Source: a virus. Taken from it: a stretch of 32,924 nucleotides of DNA. Below the pieces are notes generated by a model. It made no database searches and had not been told where the DNA came from. It saw only the letters and a list, made by a program, of their open reading frames with translations. The position numbers and the translations under genes were made by a program. Positions 17,197 to 31,323 of the stretch are shown here, piece by piece; within the stretch, counting starts at the first letter, position 1, and each line of letters begins with the position of its first letter. Location of the stretch: IMG/VR virus record IMGVR_UViG_3300046715_000134, positions 1-32,924 of that record; one strand, written 5' to 3'.

Positions 17197-18818
17197 GCCT
17201 GCGTTCGGCCTTCGCCGACCTCACCTACGCCGAGCAGGCCGAGCGCGATCAACTGCGCAATCCGAAAGCCGTCATCGAGTTGCGCACCAAGGACATGGGC
17301 ATCTGGGGCTACGTCGGCGATCACCGCGAACTCAAGTTCACCGACAAGAAGTCCCAGGCCGGATCGCTGACGGTGCTGGTGCCCGACGACGAGCACTACC
17401 GGGGCTGGTTCGACGGGCAGCCCCGCCGCACCGTCCGCCCGATCGTGGTGCGGCTGCCCTACTACACCACCCTCTGGTTCGTCACCGACTACACCCGCAC
17501 CCGCAAGGGCCGCAAACGCTACATCGAGGTCACCGCCGTCGGCGCGCTCGAACACCTCTCCTGGATCAGGCTCTGGCCGTGCCCGGCGCTGCCCCCGGAG
17601 TTCCAGCCGATCCACTACTGGTTCGCCTTCGGCTCAGCGTCGACCAACATGGCCGCCGCGCTGACCGCGAATCTCATACGGCTGCAGGCAAGTCTGTGGT
17701 CCATCCCGACCGGCAACCTGCTGGAGCTGGACACCTACAACCTGCTCGCCAAGGCCATGTATCCGATGATGGTCAACCCGCGCAACAAGCTGCTCTTCGA
17801 CACCAGCCCGTGGATCACCGCCGAGTGGCGGATGGACGACGCGATGACGGCGTTCACCGACATCTGCGACGCGGAGAACATGCAGATCACCTACCAGTTC
17901 TTCGACCCGGAGGTCGATGAGCAGCCGTTCCCGGAGTTCTGCCACCTCGACCGGCCCCGCCTCATCTTCGACTTCGTCGAAAAGGACGCTCCCGCAGCGT
18001 TCACCGGCACGCTCGTCGACGGGCTGCTGCGGACCGGGTTGAAGATGGCCGACGACTCGATCAACTGGATTCTCTACCCGATCCTCGGCGAGAGCTACGA
18101 CGACTATCTGCAGAAGGCCACCGGCATGATCGCCGACAAGCCGTGGCCCGTCTACACCACCGGCCAGTACACCCCCGTCGACGAGTTCGCCCAGACCGTC
18201 CACACCGGTCTGGGTACCCGGGTCACCGCTGGCGGCAAGAGCCCCGAGTGGCTCAATACCGCGCTCGTGTCGGGGATTAACGCCCTGCTGGGTGCTGCCG
18301 GGGCGGCGCTGGCGGCGACCGGCGCGGCCGGTGCGTTGGCCGGTCCGCTCTCGAACCTCACCCTCGGCGTGTTCGAGCCGCTGGTCAAAGACACCATCAT
18401 GGCCTTCCACTCCGACGAAGACCTCCGCGCCGCCAACGAGGCCGGGGACTGGCGGCTACGTGAAGGGTTCGCCGAGTCCTCCTCGACCGGGCTGTCGCTG
18501 GAGACCGGGCAGGGCATGAAGAAGGCGCACTTCAAGGCCCGCGACTACACCAGCCACACCATCAAGGTGCAGAACGGCTCGCCCTACTTCGTGGGCAAGC
18601 ACATCAACCTCGGCGATGCGCTCGGCGTCGCCGACGACGCCGGTGAGGTCGACGTCGACTACCTCGAAGAAATCACCTACGAGGACACCGAATCCGCGCT
18701 CGGAGACCTGACGTTGCAGGTCGGCAAACCCGACGCCGAGCTGGAGCCAGGTGCGATGGCGCTCGGCAAAATCCGCGGCCTCACCCAGTGGATGACGCGC
18801 GCCGCCCTCGCAGAATAG
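17193..18818 (+). CDS. Minor tail protein, Gp37-like (tail tip)
   Basis: 541-aa protein matching the pattern of the siphovirus Gp37-like family named after Rhodococcus phage ReqiPepy6, part of the baseplate hub. Characteristic parts are AVIELRTKDMGIWGYVGDHRELKF, then VRPIVVRLPYYTTLWFVTDYTRTRKGRKRYIEVTAVG, and late GLSLETGQGMKKAHFKARDYTSHTIKVQNG. An Ala/Gly-rich hydrophobic helix (ALLGAAGAALAATGAAGALAG) around residue 370 may be membrane-active or a packing helix. GTGA overlap with the previous gene. Confidence 0.82.
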   Translation: MSLRSAFADLTYAEQAERDQLRNPKAVIELRTKDMGIWGYVGDHRELKFTDKKSQAGSLTVLVPDDEHYRGWFDGQPRRTVRPIVVRLPYYTTLWFVTDYTRTRKGRKRYIEVTAVGALEHLSWIRLWPCPALPPEFQPIHYWFAFGSASTNMAAALTANLIRLQASLWSIPTGNLLELDTYNLLAKAMYPMMVNPRNKLLFDTSPWITAEWRMDDAMTAFTDICDAENMQITYQFFDPEVDEQPFPEFCHLDRPRLIFDFVEKDAPAAFTGTLVDGLLRTGLKMADDSINWILYPILGESYDDYLQKATGMIADKPWPVYTTGQYTPVDEFAQTVHTGLGTRVTAGGKSPEWLNTALVSGINALLGAAGAALAATGAAGALAGPLSNLTLGVFEPLVKDTIMAFHSDEDLRAANEAGDWRLREGFAESSSTGLSLETGQGMKKAHFKARDYTSHTIKVQNGSPYFVGKHINLGDALGVADDAGEVDVDYLEEITYEDTESALGDLTLQVGKPDAELEPGAMALGKIRGLTQWMTRAALAE

Positions 18819-18832
18819 GAAGGCGAAACCCT

Positions 18833-19528
18833 ATGACGGTCAAAACGATTGACCACGACATGAACATCATCGTGCAGGAGACCTACTACTGGTGCGGCCC
18901 GGCGTCGACCCAGAACGTGCTCTCCGGTCGCGGCGTGTTCGTATCCGAGCAGACCCTGGCCGGCCAACTCGGCACCACGGTCAACGGCACCGACTGGATC
19001 GGACAGTTCCCCAAGGTCCTCAACCGTCACATCGGCGGCGGCTACCAGGTCCGGGAGATGCCCAAGGACCCACCGACCGCCGCGCAGAAGCAGACGCTGT
19101 GGAACGACATCGTCGCCGCCATCAACGCCGGGTACGGCATCGTCGCCAACATCGTCGCCCCGCCCTCCAACTACCCGGTGCCCAGTTACGGGCCAGGCAC
19201 CATCTACCACTACATCGCGATCATGGGCTACGACAGCGCCACCCGGCGAGTCCTGATCGCCGACAGCGGATTCCGGCCCTTCCAGTACTGGATCAGCCTG
19301 GACCAGCTTGCCTCGCTGATCCCCCCGAAGGGTTACGCCTACCCGACCGACATCACCGTCACCGTCGCCAGCGACCACCCGATCGCCGACGCCGAGCTGA
19401 GCAAGAGCTACCCGAGCCGGTCGAAGTACCGCACCACCGACGAGCCGATCGACACGCTCGCCGGATTCATCCTCAACATCGACGGCCGCGTCCACGAGAC
19501 GTGGGTAGAACGGGGGAACACGCCATGA
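18833..19528 (+). CDS. Endolysin subunit, C39-type peptidase domain
   Basis: 231-aa lysin fragment. The papain-like fold shows YYWCGPAST with candidate catalytic Cys21, IYHYIAIMGYD with candidate His126 and LIADSGF with candidate Asp144. C39-like domains form the N-terminal cysteine-peptidase part of many actinophage LysA proteins and cut the peptide stems of peptidoglycan. Residues 186-226 (SRSKYR, DTLAGF, HETWVE) form a module also found in the next gene. ATG 18833 follows AGGAAGG; the longer frame upstream only overlaps the tail gene. No signal peptide, so export would depend on holin. ATGA overlap with the partner. Confidence 0.88.
   Translation: MTVKTIDHDMNIIVQETYYWCGPASTQNVLSGRGVFVSEQTLAGQLGTTVNGTDWIGQFPKVLNRHIGGGYQVREMPKDPPTAAQKQTLWNDIVAAINAGYGIVANIVAPPSNYPVPSYGPGTIYHYIAIMGYDSATRRVLIADSGFRPFQYWISLDQLASLIPPKGYAYPTDITVTVASDHPIADAELSKSYPSRSKYRTTDEPIDTLAGFILNIDGRVHETWVERGNTP
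19388..19510 (+). repeat. Shared lysin C-terminal module, copy 1
   Basis: This 41-codon segment aligns without gaps to 20179-20301 in the next gene, with 29 of 41 residues identical by eye (PSRSKYR, DTLAGF, LNID, HETWVE). It is a duplicated module common to the two halves of the endolysin, possibly for wall binding or for bringing the two polypeptides together. Confidence 0.85.
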
Positions 19529-20406
19529 CGCTGTTCGGCATCGACGTCTCCAACCACCAGGGCAACTTCGACTTCGCCCGCGCACGGTCAGAGGGCATGG
19601 TGTTCGCCACCCACAAGATCAGCGAGGGCTCCGGGTACCGAGACCCGTACTGGCCGCGCGCGAAAGCCGAAATGCAGAAGTGGTTCCCCGGCCGGTGGGG
19701 TGGCTACGTGTTCTGCCGCCGAGCCTCCGACCCGGCCGCCGAGGCACGCACCCTCGCCTCGCATGCGGGGTCCACCGACTTCCCGCTGCAGATCGACTAC
19801 GAGGACACCAGCGGCGGAGGCAACTACAACGACCTCGTCGCCCGCATCAACGCCTACAAGGCCGTCGGCTTCAAAACGTTCCTGCCGATCTACCTGCCGC
19901 GCTGGTTCTGGTCCGGGCACATGGGCTCACCCAACCTGGCGAATCTGCCGGTGGACGTCGGCATCTGGAACAGCCACTACGTCAACGGCAGCGGCCTCCC
20001 GGCCGCGCTGTACCCGGGCGACGCCCACGCCGGGTGGGCCGACATGGGCAACCGGCGCATAGACCTCCTGCAGTTCACCGAGAACGCCGGTGTCGCAGGC
20101 CAATCGATCGATGCCAACGCATTTCGGGGCACCGGTCAGCAGTTCAACGAGATGTTTGGAGGAGCCATGAGCAAGGCAGATGAGGAGCTGGGGAAGAAGT
20201 TCCCGAGCCGGTCCAAGTACCGCGCCAACGACGATCTGGTCGACACGCTGGCCGGGTTCGTTCTCAACATCGACGCCCGCATCCACGAAACGTGGGTCGA
20301 GGACCAGGCCCGCCAAGGCGTCGACTGGTGCCTCGACCTCGTCAAGCGTGAAGCGGCCAAGGGCGACAAAGGCTCTCAGGCTGTTCTCGACAGCATCGGC
20401 AAATGA
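19525..20406 (+). CDS. Endolysin subunit, GH25 muramidase domain
   Basis: 293-aa lysin fragment. Residues 1-200 form a glycoside hydrolase 25 barrel: FGIDVSNHQGNFDF with Asp7, then LQIDYEDT with candidate catalytic Asp91 and Glu93, then the strand FLPIYLPRWFW and later IDLLQFTENAG. It would cut the MurNAc-GlcNAc backbone, complementing the peptidase made by the preceding gene. Residues 219-259 repeat the PSRSKYR/HETWVE module. A charged helix (QARQGVDWCLDLVKREAAKGD) ends the protein. Co-translated with the peptidase through ATGA. A two-gene lysin in place of one fused LysA is seen in some Gordonia phages. Confidence 0.9.
   Translation: MTLFGIDVSNHQGNFDFARARSEGMVFATHKISEGSGYRDPYWPRAKAEMQKWFPGRWGGYVFCRRASDPAAEARTLASHAGSTDFPLQIDYEDTSGGGNYNDLVARINAYKAVGFKTFLPIYLPRWFWSGHMGSPNLANLPVDVGIWNSHYVNGSGLPAALYPGDAHAGWADMGNRRIDLLQFTENAGVAGQSIDANAFRGTGQQFNEMFGGAMSKADEELGKKFPSRSKYRANDDLVDTLAGFVLNIDARIHETWVEDQARQGVDWCLDLVKREAAKGDKGSQAVLDSIGK
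20179..20301 (+). repeat. Shared lysin C-terminal module, copy 2
   Basis: Gap-free counterpart of 19388-19510. Substitutions are mostly conservative (I/V, Y/F, E/D) and spread over all codon positions, so the duplication is old or the copies came from separate lysin sources. Confidence 0.85.
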
Positions 20407-24776: not shown

Positions 24777-25489
24777 TGGCCGACATCGACTACCAAACCG
24801 TCACCGGCGCCTGGGGCCACATCATCGACGACGGCATCCTCGACGACGACCCCGACCCCGACGAGGTCGCCCCCACCGGCCTGGTCACCTTCACCCCGCT
24901 GCTGGGCTCCTCGGGCAGCCTGCCCGTCGGCAGCCCCGCCCGGTCGGTATCCATCTCCCCGGTCGTCGCGCTCGTCGCCGACGGCATCCTCACCGACCAG
25001 CAGGGCCGCGAAGGCATCCGGCTCGTCGCCGCCATCGGCGGCACCCCCGTCTGGTGGCGGGCCACCCCCAAGCTGCACTGGGCCAAGGTCGCGGTCCCGT
25101 CGGTGCCCATCACCTTCGGGCCCGGCGACGACGGTACCGTCCACCTCAACGACCTCATCGGCGCCGACCTGCCCGGCGAAGGCGGCGACATCCGCCATCC
25201 CACCCCGGTCGCCGACCTGAACCTTCCCACGGTCGGCGACTTCGAATACAGCTTCCGGCTCTCCGGCGGCGACTTCCCGACCGGCGCCGCGCTCGCATTC
25301 CTGATCGGCACCATCCAGTACCCGTTCACCCTGTCCGGGAACCGGGCCACCATCACCATCACCGGCGACCAGATCGCCACCATCCCCGCAGGCACCGACT
25401 ACTGGCTGCTCTATGCCGAGGACGGCGCCCTGCCCGGCATCGAGCTGCAGACCGGCAAGGTCCGCAAGGTCAAGGAGAAGAGCGCATGA
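24776..25489 (+). CDS. Minor tail protein, beta-rich
   Basis: 237 aa, acidic. An N-terminal Asp-rich segment (DDGILDDDPDPDE) precedes a beta domain with ARSVSISPVVALVADGILTD, then FEYSFRLSGGDFPTGAALAF and RATITITGDQIATIPAGTDYWLLY. The pattern of a short structured domain followed by YWLLYAEDG resembles small fibre-associated domains in actinophage tails. It overlaps the previous gene by TGATG and the next by ATGA. Exact role unknown. Confidence 0.7.
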   Translation: MADIDYQTVTGAWGHIIDDGILDDDPDPDEVAPTGLVTFTPLLGSSGSLPVGSPARSVSISPVVALVADGILTDQQGREGIRLVAAIGGTPVWWRATPKLHWAKVAVPSVPITFGPGDDGTVHLNDLIGADLPGEGGDIRHPTPVADLNLPTVGDFEYSFRLSGGDFPTGAALAFLIGTIQYPFTLSGNRATITITGDQIATIPAGTDYWLLYAEDGALPGIELQTGKVRKVKEKSA

Positions 25490-26598
25490 TCCTCGTCGGC
25501 TCCGACGACCAGGTCGTCACCGTCCTCCGCGACGAAGACCGCACCATCCGCGTCCCACGCGGCACCGGCATCCTCACCCCGATGCGCGGCGAGCCCGGCC
25601 AGACCGGGCCCGTCGGCCCGCAGGGGCAAACCGGAGCCACCGGTGCGCAGGGGGAGCGGGGCCCGCAGGGGATCCCGGGTGAGTCCATCCAGGGCGAGCG
25701 CGGCGAGCAAGGCCCCGTCGGTGAGCGCGGCCCCATCGGTTTGACCGGCGAGCAGGGCCCCGTCGGTGAGCGCGGCCCCATCGGATTGACCGGCCCGCAG
25801 GGTGTGCCCGGCGAGGTCTCCCAGGCCATGCTCGACGCAGCGGTCGCCCAGCTCGTCGACAACGCCCCCGAAGCCCTCAACACCCTCGACGAACTGGCGA
25901 ACGCGCTCGGCGGCGATCCCGACTTCGCCACCACCGTCTCCACCCGCATCGGCGAGAAGGCCGACCGGGTCCACACCCACACCACCCACGACATCACCAA
26001 CCTCGACGCCGCGCTCGCCGCCATCGAAAGCGTCCCCGCAGGCGGCAGCTCCACCACCTATCTGCGTGGCGACCGCACCTGGCAGCGCATCACCAAATCC
26101 GACATCGGGCTCGCCGCCGTCGACAACACCGCCGACACCGACAAGCCGGTCTCGGTCGCCCAGGCCGATGCGATCGGCGCCCGCGAACCAGCCATCGCGG
26201 GGGGCACCACCACCCAGTGGTGGCGCGGCGACAAGACGTGGCAGCCGATCAGCAAGGCCACCGTCGGTTTGTCCAATGTGGACAACACCGCCGACGCCGA
26301 CAAACCCATCTCCGCGCCGCAGGCCATGTACATGTCGAGCCGGGAACCGGGCATCTCGCTCGGCACCACCGGCCAGTACTGGCGCGGCGACAAGAGCTGG
26401 CAAACCCTCAACAAGGCCGCCGTCGGCCTCTCCGCCGTCGACAACACCGCCGACACCGACAAGGCCATCTCCACCGCAGCCCAGGCCGCCCTCAACACCA
26501 AGGTGACCGGGGCCGGGCTGTCGCTGTGGGTCGGCACCACCGCCGCCTACAACGCACTACCGTCCAAATCCGCCACCACCGTCTACGTGCTCACCTGA
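25486..26598 (+). CDS. Tail fibre protein with collagen-like and fibre repeats
   Basis: 370 aa. Residues about 34-110 are Gly-X-Y repeats (GEPGQTGPVGPQGQTGATG and onward), a collagen-like triple helix. Next is a helical segment (AMLDAAVAQLVDNAPEALNTLDELANAL) of the kind that nucleates trimers. Then come three 53-residue units carrying RGD[RK]-[TS]-WQ and [AS]-x-VDNTAD-[TA]-DK, the classic phage fibre repeat. The end (LWVGTTAAYNALPSKSATTVYVLT) resembles a fibre-tip domain. Together these make a trimeric, elongated receptor-binding fibre. ATGA start overlap. Confidence 0.88.
   Translation: MILVGSDDQVVTVLRDEDRTIRVPRGTGILTPMRGEPGQTGPVGPQGQTGATGAQGERGPQGIPGESIQGERGEQGPVGERGPIGLTGEQGPVGERGPIGLTGPQGVPGEVSQAMLDAAVAQLVDNAPEALNTLDELANALGGDPDFATTVSTRIGEKADRVHTHTTHDITNLDAALAAIESVPAGGSSTTYLRGDRTWQRITKSDIGLAAVDNTADTDKPVSVAQADAIGAREPAIAGGTTTQWWRGDKTWQPISKATVGLSNVDNTADADKPISAPQAMYMSSREPGISLGTTGQYWRGDKSWQTLNKAAVGLSAVDNTADTDKAISTAAQAALNTKVTGAGLSLWVGTTAAYNALPSKSATTVYVLT
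25705..25794 (+). repeat. 45-base tandem duplication in collagen-like region
   Basis: Units 25705-25749 and 25750-25794 differ at only two bases, both silent, and encode EQGPVGERGPIGLTG twice. This looks like a recent slippage duplication and marks a place where fibre length can change in 15-residue steps. Confidence 0.9.
26065..26541 (+). repeat. Three 159-base fibre repeats
   Basis: Units start at 26065, 26224 and 26383 with exact 159-base spacing, each opening with RGD-[RK]-[TS]-W-Q. The nucleotide sequences have diverged moderately, so the repeat is older than the collagen-like duplication. The third unit grades into the C-terminal domain. Confidence 0.85.
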
Positions 26599-28042: not shown

Positions 28043-28921
28043 TTACGCTGCGGCCATCATGGCAGCACGCACCTCATCCTCATCGACCGCGGTATAGCGC
28101 TGGGTGGTAGCCACCGAAGCATGACCCAGCAATGTCTGCACTGCCCGAAGGTTGCCGGTCCCGCGATGCGCCCGCGTCGCGAACCGGTGCCGGAGGGTGT
28201 GCATCGTCCACGCCCCCGGGAGCGCCTCGGCGCATAGATGCCCGACCCAGCGCGCCGACAAATGACCGTTGTCGTCGCCCGGGAAGAGCCAGCCGTGGCG
28301 CGCCGCCCCGGGGGTGTGTCCCGCCGCCCCCTTCTCGATCTGGCTCGCCAGGTCGTCGCTGATCGGGATGATCCGCACCCGAGCACCCTTGCCGAGCACC
28401 CGGAGCACCGGACCGGTGGAGCCCTCCTCGACATGCTCGGTGTGGACCTGGGCGACCTCCGCGCGGCGTAGCCCAGCCTCACACGAGAGCCGCAGCATCA
28501 GCTGCACTCGTTTCGACGGGGTCTGCAGCGCGGCTGCCCACACCCGATCCGGGGCGGGCCTCGGCGCCGGGGTCGACGAATGCACCAGCGGCAAATCCTC
28601 GGTCGGGTTGGTCGGCAGCCGCCCGGTCTTGTGCGCCCAGCCGAACAGCGAGCAGGCGGCGTTGCGGTGTCCGCGTCGGGTCTCCAGCGACCACGTTTGC
28701 CCCGCCTGGTACTCGACGATCGTGTCGAGGGTGACGTCGTTTGGCGAACCGGACAATGCCCGTGCGAGCCGTTCGAGTTGCTGTCGGCGGGTGTTGACCG
28801 TGGTGTGCGGTCGGCCCATCGCGCGGAGGTGGCGGAGGTAGTCGGCGAGCAGCGGCTGCCATTCTGCCGGTACCGATTTGGCGCGTCCCGTGTTACCTGT
28901 GTTACTGGTGTTGTGGTTCAT
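28043..28921 (-). CDS. int: Tyrosine integrase
   Basis: Site-specific recombinase of 292 aa that would join attP to the host tRNA attB. An N-terminal core-binding (SAM-like) domain occupies about 20-110. The catalytic domain shows Arg152 (EAGLRRAEV), Lys178 (GKGARVR), His241-x-x-Arg244 (HTLRHRF), His267 (LLGHAS) and nucleophile Tyr276 (TTQRYTAV). No long arm-binding domain is evident, only a short polar N-terminus (NHNTSNTGNTG). The C-terminus VRAAMMAAA looks like an ssrA-type degradation tail. It is transcribed leftward behind the repressor, with a 153-base gap that includes candidate arm sites. Start at ATG 28921 has only a weak, distant GGAG. Confidence 0.95.
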   Translation of the reverse strand: MNHNTSNTGNTGRAKSVPAEWQPLLADYLRHLRAMGRPHTTVNTRRQQLERLARALSGSPNDVTLDTIVEYQAGQTWSLETRRGHRNAACSLFGWAHKTGRLPTNPTEDLPLVHSSTPAPRPAPDRVWAAALQTPSKRVQLMLRLSCEAGLRRAEVAQVHTEHVEEGSTGPVLRVLGKGARVRIIPISDDLASQIEKGAAGHTPGAARHGWLFPGDDNGHLSARWVGHLCAEALPGAWTMHTLRHRFATRAHRGTGNLRAVQTLLGHASVATTQRYTAVDEDEVRAAMMAAA

Positions 28922-29074
28922 GAGTGTGAATCTTGCTCCGGTTTGTGCACGTTTGTCACTAGTTTGGATTTCATTTACTAGAGCAAATGTGACGGTTGTG
29001 AATGGTGTGACCTACATGCGAAATCGAACCAACGGCGCAACCGCTGGTTCGTAGTGAGGGCTCTCAGAGCGGCA
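28922..29074. other. int-rep intergenic region with candidate arm-type sites
   Basis: A/T-richer non-coding segment. It has two tandem 10-mers GTTTGTGCAC and GTTTGTCACT (28941-28960) and three TGTGA elements spaced exactly 9 bases (28988, 28997, 29006), plus another at 28925. These are candidate integrase arm or excisionase sites left of the attP core. An inverted repeat GAACCAACGG / CCGCTGGTTC (29027-29051, one mismatch) follows and could end or attenuate repressor transcripts before integrase. No coding potential. Confidence 0.5.
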
Positions 29075-29461
29075 TTACGCCGCCTGGCCTGCGCCTTCCT
29101 CCGAGGTCGTCATGGCCAATTGCACTGCAGGACAGAAGGTTGGGGGTTCGAATCCCTCCGGGCGCACGTTGCCGCTGGTAGGCCAGTCTTCTGGGCCTGC
29201 TGGCGGCTCGGTATCGAGGAACCACCACATCGGCACCCCGGCGAGCATTTTCAGTCGCCGGGCCATTTTGCGTGGGTCCTTCATCCGGTTCCGGTCGCCC
29301 TCCCAGGAGGCGTAGCGACCGAAGGTCACCCCGAGCACCTTGGCCATCTCCCGCTGGTTGAGGCCCAGGTGCCGCCGGACCTTGCGGAGCTTGTCCCCGT
29401 CGCTCCAGGCGAGGGTGAACGGCTCCTTCTCCTCGATCTCTATCTCTTGCTCAACTGTCAT
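29075..29461 (-). CDS. rep: HTH immunity repressor carrying attP in its 3' end
   Basis: 128 aa from ATG 29461 (GGTGGGAG just upstream). The longer frame to 29884 runs across the divergent genes and is not used. Residues 20-75 hold an HTH: LRKVRRHLGLNQREMAKVLGV then YASWEGDRNRM. The link MWWFLDTEPP follows. From Val99 the codons are antisense tRNA sequence, giving VRPEGFEPPTF (99-109), and the last residues end GAGQAA, an ssrA-like tail. This matches the integration-dependent repressors of mycobacteriophage BPs-type switches, in which the viral form is degraded and the truncated prophage form is stable. It would repress the rightward early promoter. Confidence 0.88.
   Translation of the reverse strand: MTVEQEIEIEEKEPFTLAWSDGDKLRKVRRHLGLNQREMAKVLGVTFGRYASWEGDRNRMKDPRKMARRLKMLAGVPMWWFLDTEPPAGPEDWPTSGNVRPEGFEPPTFCPAVQLAMTTSEEGAGQAA
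29133..29167 (+). other. attP: attP core, 3' half of a tRNA gene
   Basis: 35 bases matching the 3' part of a tRNA: end of the anticodon stem CAGA, variable AGGTTG, T-arm GGGGG-TTCGAAT-CCCTC, acceptor CGGGCGC, discriminator A. The 5' half of a tRNA is absent, so it is not a functional gene; such fragments restore the host tRNA after integration. From general knowledge of actinobacterial tRNAs it best resembles tRNA-Arg(ACG). It lies inside the repressor gene, in frame. Confidence 0.88.
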
Positions 29462-29569
29462 GGCTCCCACCTTGGCGCATGAGCCAAACGGTGTCAAACG
29501 AATCCAAAAACATGCATGCGTGTGCAGAACGCTTGACGTCGATTGTGGCGCCATGTAGGGATATGAAAC
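29462..29569. promoter_or_regulatory. Divergent promoter/operator region of the lysis-lysogeny switch
   Basis: 108 bases between repressor and the rightward HTH gene. It holds an inverted repeat TTGGC-GCATGA-GCCAA (29472-29487) next to the repressor leader, TTGACA in the leftward sense (29492-29497), TGGCGCCA (29546-29553), and one copy of CAAAAACATGCATG (29505-29518). A second copy lies at 29575-29588 inside the next gene. TTGACG (29533-29538) with TAGGGA 17 bases later could be the rightward promoter. If so, its transcript would start at or next to ATG 29570 and be nearly leaderless. Individual promoter calls are tentative. Confidence 0.6.
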
Positions 29570-29791
29570 ATGAGCAAAAACATGCATGTTGATCCTGACA
29601 CCGAATCTGCAGGGCGAGACGTGATGCTCACCGCCGCCGAAGCCGCCGACTACGCCGGCGTCTCCGTCCAGACCATCAAACGCGCCGTCAAAGCCGGGAA
29701 GATCGCCGAAATGCGTACGCCCGGCGGGCATCTCAGGTTCCACCGCTCCGACGTCGACGCCATGCTGCGCGGCCACGCAGCCACCGCCTGA
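29570..29791 (+). CDS. Excisionase/Cro-like MerR-type HTH protein
   Basis: 73 aa. Residues 19-70 form a winged-helix DNA-binding domain of the excisionase type: MLTAAEAADYAGVSVQTIKRAVKAGKI, then the wing MRTPGGHLRFHRSDVDAML. It is divergent from the repressor, where Cro or Xis genes are found, and it is the first rightward early gene. It could direct integrase toward excision, repress the repressor promoter, or both. Its start codons overlap the second copy of CAAAAACATGCATG, which may be its own or the repressor's operator. Confidence 0.82.
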   Translation: MSKNMHVDPDTESAGRDVMLTAAEAADYAGVSVQTIKRAVKAGKIAEMRTPGGHLRFHRSDVDAMLRGHAATA

Positions 29792-30128: not shown

Positions 30129-30439
30129 GCAGCGTCGACAACGCCTACATTCCGCATCCCAAACTGATCGTCCGCTGCCGTGGATGCGGGGATCACATCT
30201 TCTTCGCCCGCACCATCAACGACCGCGTCATCCCGATCGACGCCCAACCCACCCGCAACGGCAACCTGTCCGTCGCCGCCGCCGGGGCCCACCAGGCGCC
30301 GATCGCAACGGTGATCACCTCCGGGCAGCGCGCCGGAATGCAGGCCGCCGGCATGCCCGTCTACTCGTCGCACTTCCAGGCCTGCCCGAAGAGCGAGGAA
30401 TACCGGCGCCGCCACCAGAATCGGAAAGGAAAGCGATGA
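30125..30439 (+). CDS. Putative zinc-ribbon hypothetical protein
   Basis: 104 aa. CRGCG at residues 18-22 and a later lone Cys (FQACPKSEEYRRR) suggest a partial zinc site. The stretch IFFARTINDRVIPIDAQPTRNGN is a pattern seen in short early proteins of actinobacteriophages (a C-x-x-C pair, then a strand ending P-[IV]-D). The basic end RRRHQNRKGKR may contact nucleic acid. GTGA and ATGA overlaps place it in the early operon. Function unknown. Confidence 0.7.
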   Translation: MSSVDNAYIPHPKLIVRCRGCGDHIFFARTINDRVIPIDAQPTRNGNLSVAAAGAHQAPIATVITSGQRAGMQAAGMPVYSSHFQACPKSEEYRRRHQNRKGKR

Positions 30440-31323
30440 CGGCGATCAAAGGCGTCCACCCCTACGCCGAGATGTTCCCGATGCTTCCGGAGTCGGAACT
30501 GATCGAGCTGGCGGAATCGATCGCCGCGAATGGGCTCCGCAACCCGATCGTCGTCACCCCGAAGGGCCTCATCATCGATGGCCGGAATCGGGCAGCGGCA
30601 TGCGAGAAAGCCGGAGTCAAACCGGCCACTGAGGTTTATCGCAACGACGACATCGCCGAATACATCATCGACTGCAATTCGTCGCGCCGCCATATGTCGA
30701 CCGGGGCCCGAGCGATGTCCTCCGCGCTTGTGCTCGAAGCCGACGGCAGACGCGAAAACGGACGGTGGAAACGAGGCAGCGTCGCTATTGGCGAATCCGC
30801 CAATAGCACTGCGGATTGGCAGTCCCGACTCAAGGAGTGCGGACTCGTCCTCGACCATGCGCATGATCTTGCGTCGCTGGTGATCCAGGAGGAGATAGCC
30901 CTCGACGCCGCCTATCAGAAGGCGTGTGACATTCGCGACGAGGAACGGCTGGCCCTCGAAGACGCCGAACGCGCCGAGCAGGAAGAGGCCGACGCCCAGG
31001 CTTCCCTCGAAGAGCACGAAGCCACCGAACTCCTCTCGAAGGTCGCCGACGGCACCTACGACAACCACCGCGAGGCCTGGGCCATCTGGCTCGAACGCAA
31101 CCGCGAGGAGAAGGCCCGCCTCGACCGCGAACGCCGCGACCACGAGGACGCGATCAGACGCGACGCGAACCGAGTCCAGGCCTTCCTCTCCGGCTTCGAC
31201 GGCGCCTACTCCATGCGCGAACACCCCTACCGCGACGAAGTCCTCCACGCACTCAAGAAGCGCGAACGCACCCGGTTCCTCCGTATCGAAAGTGAGATGA
31301 CATGGCCACCGACTCGCCTGTGA
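30436..31323 (+). CDS. ParB-like nuclease domain protein
   Basis: 295 aa from ATG 30436 (GGAAAGGAAAG upstream, ATGA overlap). Residues 5-75 carry a ParB N-terminal fold: FPMLPESELIELAESIAANGLRNPIVVTPKGLIIDGRNRAAACEKAG. A middle helical region (AREMSSA-like, about 90-150) could serve as an HTH. Residues about 175-275 are a long charged helix rich in Glu/Arg (EERLALEDAERAEQEEADAQA). It probably binds DNA or acts as a nuclease/NTP-dependent clamp during replication. It is the second ParB-fold protein in this window, unrelated in architecture to the methyltransferase fusion. Confidence 0.8.
   Translation: MTAIKGVHPYAEMFPMLPESELIELAESIAANGLRNPIVVTPKGLIIDGRNRAAACEKAGVKPATEVYRNDDIAEYIIDCNSSRRHMSTGARAMSSALVLEADGRRENGRWKRGSVAIGESANSTADWQSRLKECGLVLDHAHDLASLVIQEEIALDAAYQKACDIRDEERLALEDAERAEQEEADAQASLEEHEATELLSKVADGTYDNHREAWAIWLERNREEKARLDRERRDHEDAIRRDANRVQAFLSGFDGAYSMREHPYRDEVLHALKKRERTRFLRIESEMTWPPTRL

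Follow-up and report, generated by a model that had tools for sequence, protein, structure and literature searches.

A highly probable BPs-type switch of integration-dependent immunity, with attP inside the repressor gene, in a distant phage genome

Introduction

Near the right end of a 32.9-kb linear virus sequence (the window, i.e., the whole stretch of 32,924 nucleotides analyzed here), an integrase gene (int), a repressor gene (rep), and an HTH_17 gene lie together, and the 3′ part of rep reads through a segment that resembles half of a tRNA. This raises the question of whether integration of the phage genome alters the repressor and thereby activates it. Such a system was reportedly described by Broussard et al. 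in 2013 for BPs and its cluster G relatives, in which the repressor is gp33 and the integrase is gp32. An earlier note on this DNA had proposed the same architecture here.

Elsewhere in the window, genes for a peptidase-like protein and a GH25-like endolysin (18788–20406; families assigned by eye) lie among the tail genes, as described for Jujuvirus phages. A tail protein (25489–26598) contains a collagen-like Gly-X-Y stretch (GEQGPVGERGPIGLTG...). By eye, two ParB-like reading frames were also recognized at 463–1791 and about 30437–31323, the first of which runs into a DNA methylase-like domain. The terminase and portal showed less than 60% identity to those of every phage compared.

Results

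The rep gene (29075–29461, minus strand) encodes the viral form of the immunity repressor, a 128-residue protein ending in ...EEGAGQAA. This assignment was based on an HTH_19 domain at residues 22–71 (Pfam, E 9e-8), on the PHROG family phrog_2328 (transcriptional repressor), and on homology to UmaThurman gp36, the closest relative of Rep, with 60% identity over residues 15–109. Within this gene, positions 29132–29167 on the plus strand form the attP common core. These 36 bp match without a difference (36/36) in 72 BPs-type phages of M. smegmatis (megablast E 3e-8, 2.3 Gb searched), and the annotated features of the best 40 of these 72 phages placed the match inside a repressor gene. ARAGORN analysis of actinobacterial genomes identified the host counterpart as tRNA-Arg(ACG), in which the core begins with the 3′ strand of the anticodon stem and ends with the discriminator base. 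The core therefore corresponds to the 3′ half of this tRNA, read antisense by codons 99–110 of rep in frame 0 and translated as VRPEGFEPPTFC. This confirms the in-frame antisense copy of a tRNA 3′ half that the earlier note had claimed. The tRNA-like segment is not the very end of the gene as that note had it, since 18 phage-specific codons separate it from the stop codon. No complete tRNA gene was found in the 32.9-kb window, as expected for an attP.

The main variation in the core is a single T-stem pair, which is G-C in this phage and the BPs group, A-T in the UmaThurman attP, and T-A in that of Wizard. At the same pair, A-T or G-T is found in most genomes of the genus of a Mycobacterium metagenome-assembled genome (MAG) that carries a related prophage (see below). 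This replacement accounts for the missing exact matches: an attP-core search of the family and genus of this MAG gave none, and the exact 30-bp core was present in 0 of 148 genomes of the genus. The exact G-C core is rare: among 198 genomes of the class, only two contained it, one of them in tRNA-Arg(ACG), so that it does not identify the phage host.

Next, the integration junctions were constructed in silico by joining rep to the antisense strand of tRNA-Arg(ACG) from nine actinobacterial genomes. The predicted prophage repressor had 109 residues in all nine junctions, with TGA directly after F109, because the host junction turns the following codon into TGA, the antisense of the anticodon-stem TCA. 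Thus, the expectation that residues 1–109 are kept was borne out, but the host would add only a stop codon instead of the host-encoded sequence that had been suggested. These junctions show that the truncation point would be set by the tRNA sequence itself, in which the antisense anticodon arm gives TGA in the Rep frame. As a control, the same procedure was applied to Angel, the comparator standing in for BPs, and yielded 103 residues, the same length as gp33-103, which is the prophage form published for the BPs repressor (PMC4557955). The part predicted to be lost comprises codons 110–128 and the stop codon (29075–29134, minus strand), including the putative ssrA-like tail ...GQAA. An AlphaFold model of Rep contained a five-helix HTH DNA-binding domain at residues 21–82 (29216–29401, minus strand; block pLDDT about 82–94), while residues 92–98 and 108–128 scored below 50. 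In the model, the HTH domain ends before residue 109 and the tail past this residue is predicted to be disordered, indicating that a cut there would spare the DNA-binding domain, which the prophage form would retain.

Published features of integration-dependent immunity include a shorter prophage repressor, made by a host stop codon at or near attL, and an ssrA-like -AA tail on the viral repressor only (PMC9934374). Here, viral Rep ends in GQAA and Int in MAAA, and the -AA end would be absent from prophage Rep since the tail is lost; by itself, this is a weak sequence signature. Although we had regarded these ends as strong proof, they were downgraded to supportive rather than decisive evidence after 4 of 27 chosen window genes were found to share -AA. 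Repressor tails are likewise not uniform among the relatives (Angel, -KAS; UmaThurman, -IPA; the viral forms of the two relatives with lysogens described below, -RSA and -FAV). In published systems, -AA ends on both proteins are frequent but not constant (PMC8092301, PMC9934374), and some M. abscessus prophages of this type have no ssrA-like ends (PMC8092301). Such variation would suit a real truncation that activates Rep through changed oligomerization, DNA binding, or transcript levels rather than through loss of a proteolysis tail. We consider this unlikely, as Rep and Int of this phage both end in AA, and the long and short BPs repressors bind DNA similarly and differ in their degradation (PMC4557955).

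The int gene (28043–28921, minus strand) encodes a tyrosine integrase of 292 residues ending in ...RAAMMAAA (Pfam Phage_integrase, E 4e-21), without an N-terminal domain before the core-binding region. Its identity was 72–73% to the integrases of Gordonia phages Wizard and Bakery and 60% to that of Angel, and the alignment with Wizard Int covered 98% of the query, indicating that the protein is full-length. As the earlier note stated, int is the next gene beyond rep. It lies on the same strand, but the two do not overlap; they are separated by 153 bp (28922–29074), in which no clear repeated arm-type integrase sites were seen. No 9-mer was repeated within the attP flanks, and 5 loose 10-mer pairs were found between the flanks versus 2.2 in shuffled sequences. 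For integration-dependent immunity systems, a lack of arm-type integrase sites near attP is a published feature (PMC9635641).

Across the operator region from rep and int lies a divergent gene for a 73-residue excisionase/Cro-like protein (29570–29791, plus strand; HTH_17, E 2e-14; phrog_66, excisionase and transcriptional regulator), whose translation might alternatively start at an in-frame ATG at 29624. Integration-dependent immunity systems likewise have int beside rep on one strand and a cro/xis gene that diverges from them beyond the operators. Several elements in the operator region of this phage are conserved with the control region of UmaThurman. A putative −35 element, TTGACA (29492–29497, minus strand), of Prep, the leftward promoter from which rep and int would be transcribed, lies in the shared TTGACAnCGTTTG, and that of the rightward early promoter PR, TTGACG (29533–29538, plus strand), contains the shared TTGAC box and is accompanied by a weak −10. 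Two candidate operator copies of CAAAAACATGCATG were located at 29505–29520, where GCATGC is conserved, and at 29575–29590, where ATGCATGTTTT beside the xis start is conserved. The second copy includes a perfect 12-bp palindrome, AACATGCATGTT, at 29579–29590. A consensus promoter scan called no full promoter, Prep and PR included, and the promoters are therefore named only from their conservation with UmaThurman.

No lysogen of this phage itself was found, but two of its relatives were found in natural lysogens. The prophage in a Pseudonocardia MAG encodes a repressor of 97 residues that stops at the junction, whereas an IMG/VR viral contig identical to it up to the junction encodes 120 residues; int adjoins rep in the viral contig and lies about 39.5 kb from rep in the MAG. 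In the Mycobacterium MAG, the repressor (57% identical to Rep) ends after 103 residues beside host DNA (L010), compared with 121 residues for the viral form read across the core of the local attP. Its Int (55% identical) lies at the end of another contig, beside different host DNA (L021). In many prophage-free genomes of relatives, these host flanks adjoin each other and the shared core CGGTAGGTTA marks the joint; the two contigs are therefore best read as the ends of one prophage. Both lysogens show repressor truncation together with separation of int, which had been foreseen for this phage and is seen in both relatives as int at the other prophage end, and they do so at non-tRNA sites.

Regarding these sites, the Pseudonocardia prophage is inserted in the 3′ terminal part of a response-regulator gene, where the exact core is only 8 bp, TCGTGGTT (L011:4257–4913 / L015:4261–4268). 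The Mycobacterium prophage lies upstream of genes named by eye as rpmF-mprA, and the motif that it interrupts, CCAACCAACCGGTAGGTTAG, is strongly conserved (L021:1358–1377, L010:704–713; L058–L075). The palindromic AACCAACCGGTAGGTT at this site looks like a host operator serving as attB.

These lysogens also bear on a rival explanation, in which this is an ordinary temperate phage whose attP lies beside int, the open frame through attP is due to chance, and full-length Rep is already active before integration. It is true that tRNA 3′ halves commonly serve as attP beside int, that frames stay open in GC-rich DNA, and that -AA ends are not rare in the window. However, homology to the UmaThurman repressor continues through the core to residue 109, the repressors of four phages (this one, Angel, UmaThurman, and Wizard) all read through the same tRNA core, with a stop predicted at or near the host junction, and the repressors of the two relatives are truncated in their natural lysogens. 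We therefore regard an ordinary phage as very improbable. Slightly less probable still is a decayed cassette whose attP no longer recombines and from which lysogens are impossible: no lysogen of this phage was found, the record is a linear 32.9-kb fragment, and Int is short at 292 residues, but Int is full-length against that of Wizard, the core is perfect, and the repressor, operators, and xis are intact.

Discussion

Taken together, it is highly probable that this locus is a BPs-type switch in which immunity depends on integration, and integration into a bacterial tRNA gene very probably removes the Rep tail and switches Rep on. The BPs-type architecture that had been proposed is upheld by the identical core, the relationship of Int to that of Angel, the open frame through attP, the immediate host stop, and the -AA ends. 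Recombination between attP and tRNA-Arg(ACG) would replace codons 110–128 with TGA, leaving a 109-residue Rep with its HTH domain intact, and would leave int at the prophage end opposite to rep. By analogy with BPs, we propose that the 128-residue Rep and Int would be destroyed during infection through their -AA tails, and the lytic program would proceed. If Int lasted long enough, the genome would integrate, and the tail-less Rep would be stable. As in BPs, this form may then bind the ATGCATG operators, turn off the early promoter, and confer immunity, such that integration would at once commit the phage to lysogeny and activate Rep.

The likeness to BPs is one of anatomy and does not extend to the DNA-binding domain of Rep, which is of the UmaThurman type. 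The core lies in the same frame of the repressor gene in cluster G, the predicted prophage repressor has the same Phe as its last residue (position 103 in BPs and 109 in this phage), and a divergent xis/cro-like gene and a 12-bp palindromic operator are common to both. In contrast, rep and int overlap in Angel and BPs, 33 residues are removed there compared with 19 here, and the Int of Angel has N- and C-terminal extensions that are both absent here. Judged by sequence, this phage would fall outside the cluster G immunity group, as its repressor domain is only 25% identical to that of Angel and its palindrome is AACATGCATGTT instead of CGACATATGTCG.

UmaThurman (gp36/gp35), a Gordonia phage of Jujuvirus, resembles this phage in its repressor, in the frame through the core, in an attB in tRNA-Arg (PMC4929511, PMC5559632), and in the ATGCATG operators and −35 elements. 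Its immunity was predicted to be integration-dependent (PMC4929511). However, its Int is only 60% identical, its core has an A49-T65 T-stem pair in place of G-C, and its repressor tail is unrelated. The Gordonia phages Wizard, Twister6, and Bakery (Wizardvirus) have the closest integrases, attP within the repressor gene, and attB in tRNA-Arg (PMC5559632), but they have BPs-type repressors (56% identity to that of Angel) and their core is read in another frame, giving a ...KPLDP end after integration. Similarly, M. abscessus prophages MabB, C, H, K, N, and O have attP in rep, a stop at attL, 20–35 residues removed, and a Rep and Int that often end in -AA, but use other attB sites, some of which are outside tRNA genes (PMC8092301, PMC9934374). 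A weak Kaistia match (L012, 27%) was set aside, as was Arthrobacter phage Elesar (L009), whose short HTH gene has no internal attP. In Elesar, a complete tRNA-Arg lies between int and related HTH genes (L009:2112–2185).

The switch type itself is already known, having been described for BPs, predicted for UmaThurman and Wizard, and found commonly in M. abscessus prophages. Particular to this phage is the pairing of an UmaThurman-type repressor domain with a Wizard/BPs-type integrase, the two being joined at attP. Since Rep is closest to UmaThurman and Int to the Wizard group, which has a BPs-type repressor, the affinity shifts at or near attP, which suggests that repressor modules may have been exchanged there. 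A common ancestor with later replacement accounts for the mosaic equally well. Tentatively, attP could be a joint for shuffling immunity modules, across which an UmaThurman-type repressor domain with its operators came to be joined to the Wizard/BPs-type integrase.

A distant phage genome joins the integration-dependent immunity group, and no new class is opened. The lysogens in the Mycobacterium and Pseudonocardia genomes back the mechanism, also outside tRNA genes. If attP is indeed such a joint, reading frame alone would limit the exchanges, because the core is both a recombination site and a set of codons, and phages would change their immunity specificity while the integration site and the 109/103-type truncation point are kept.
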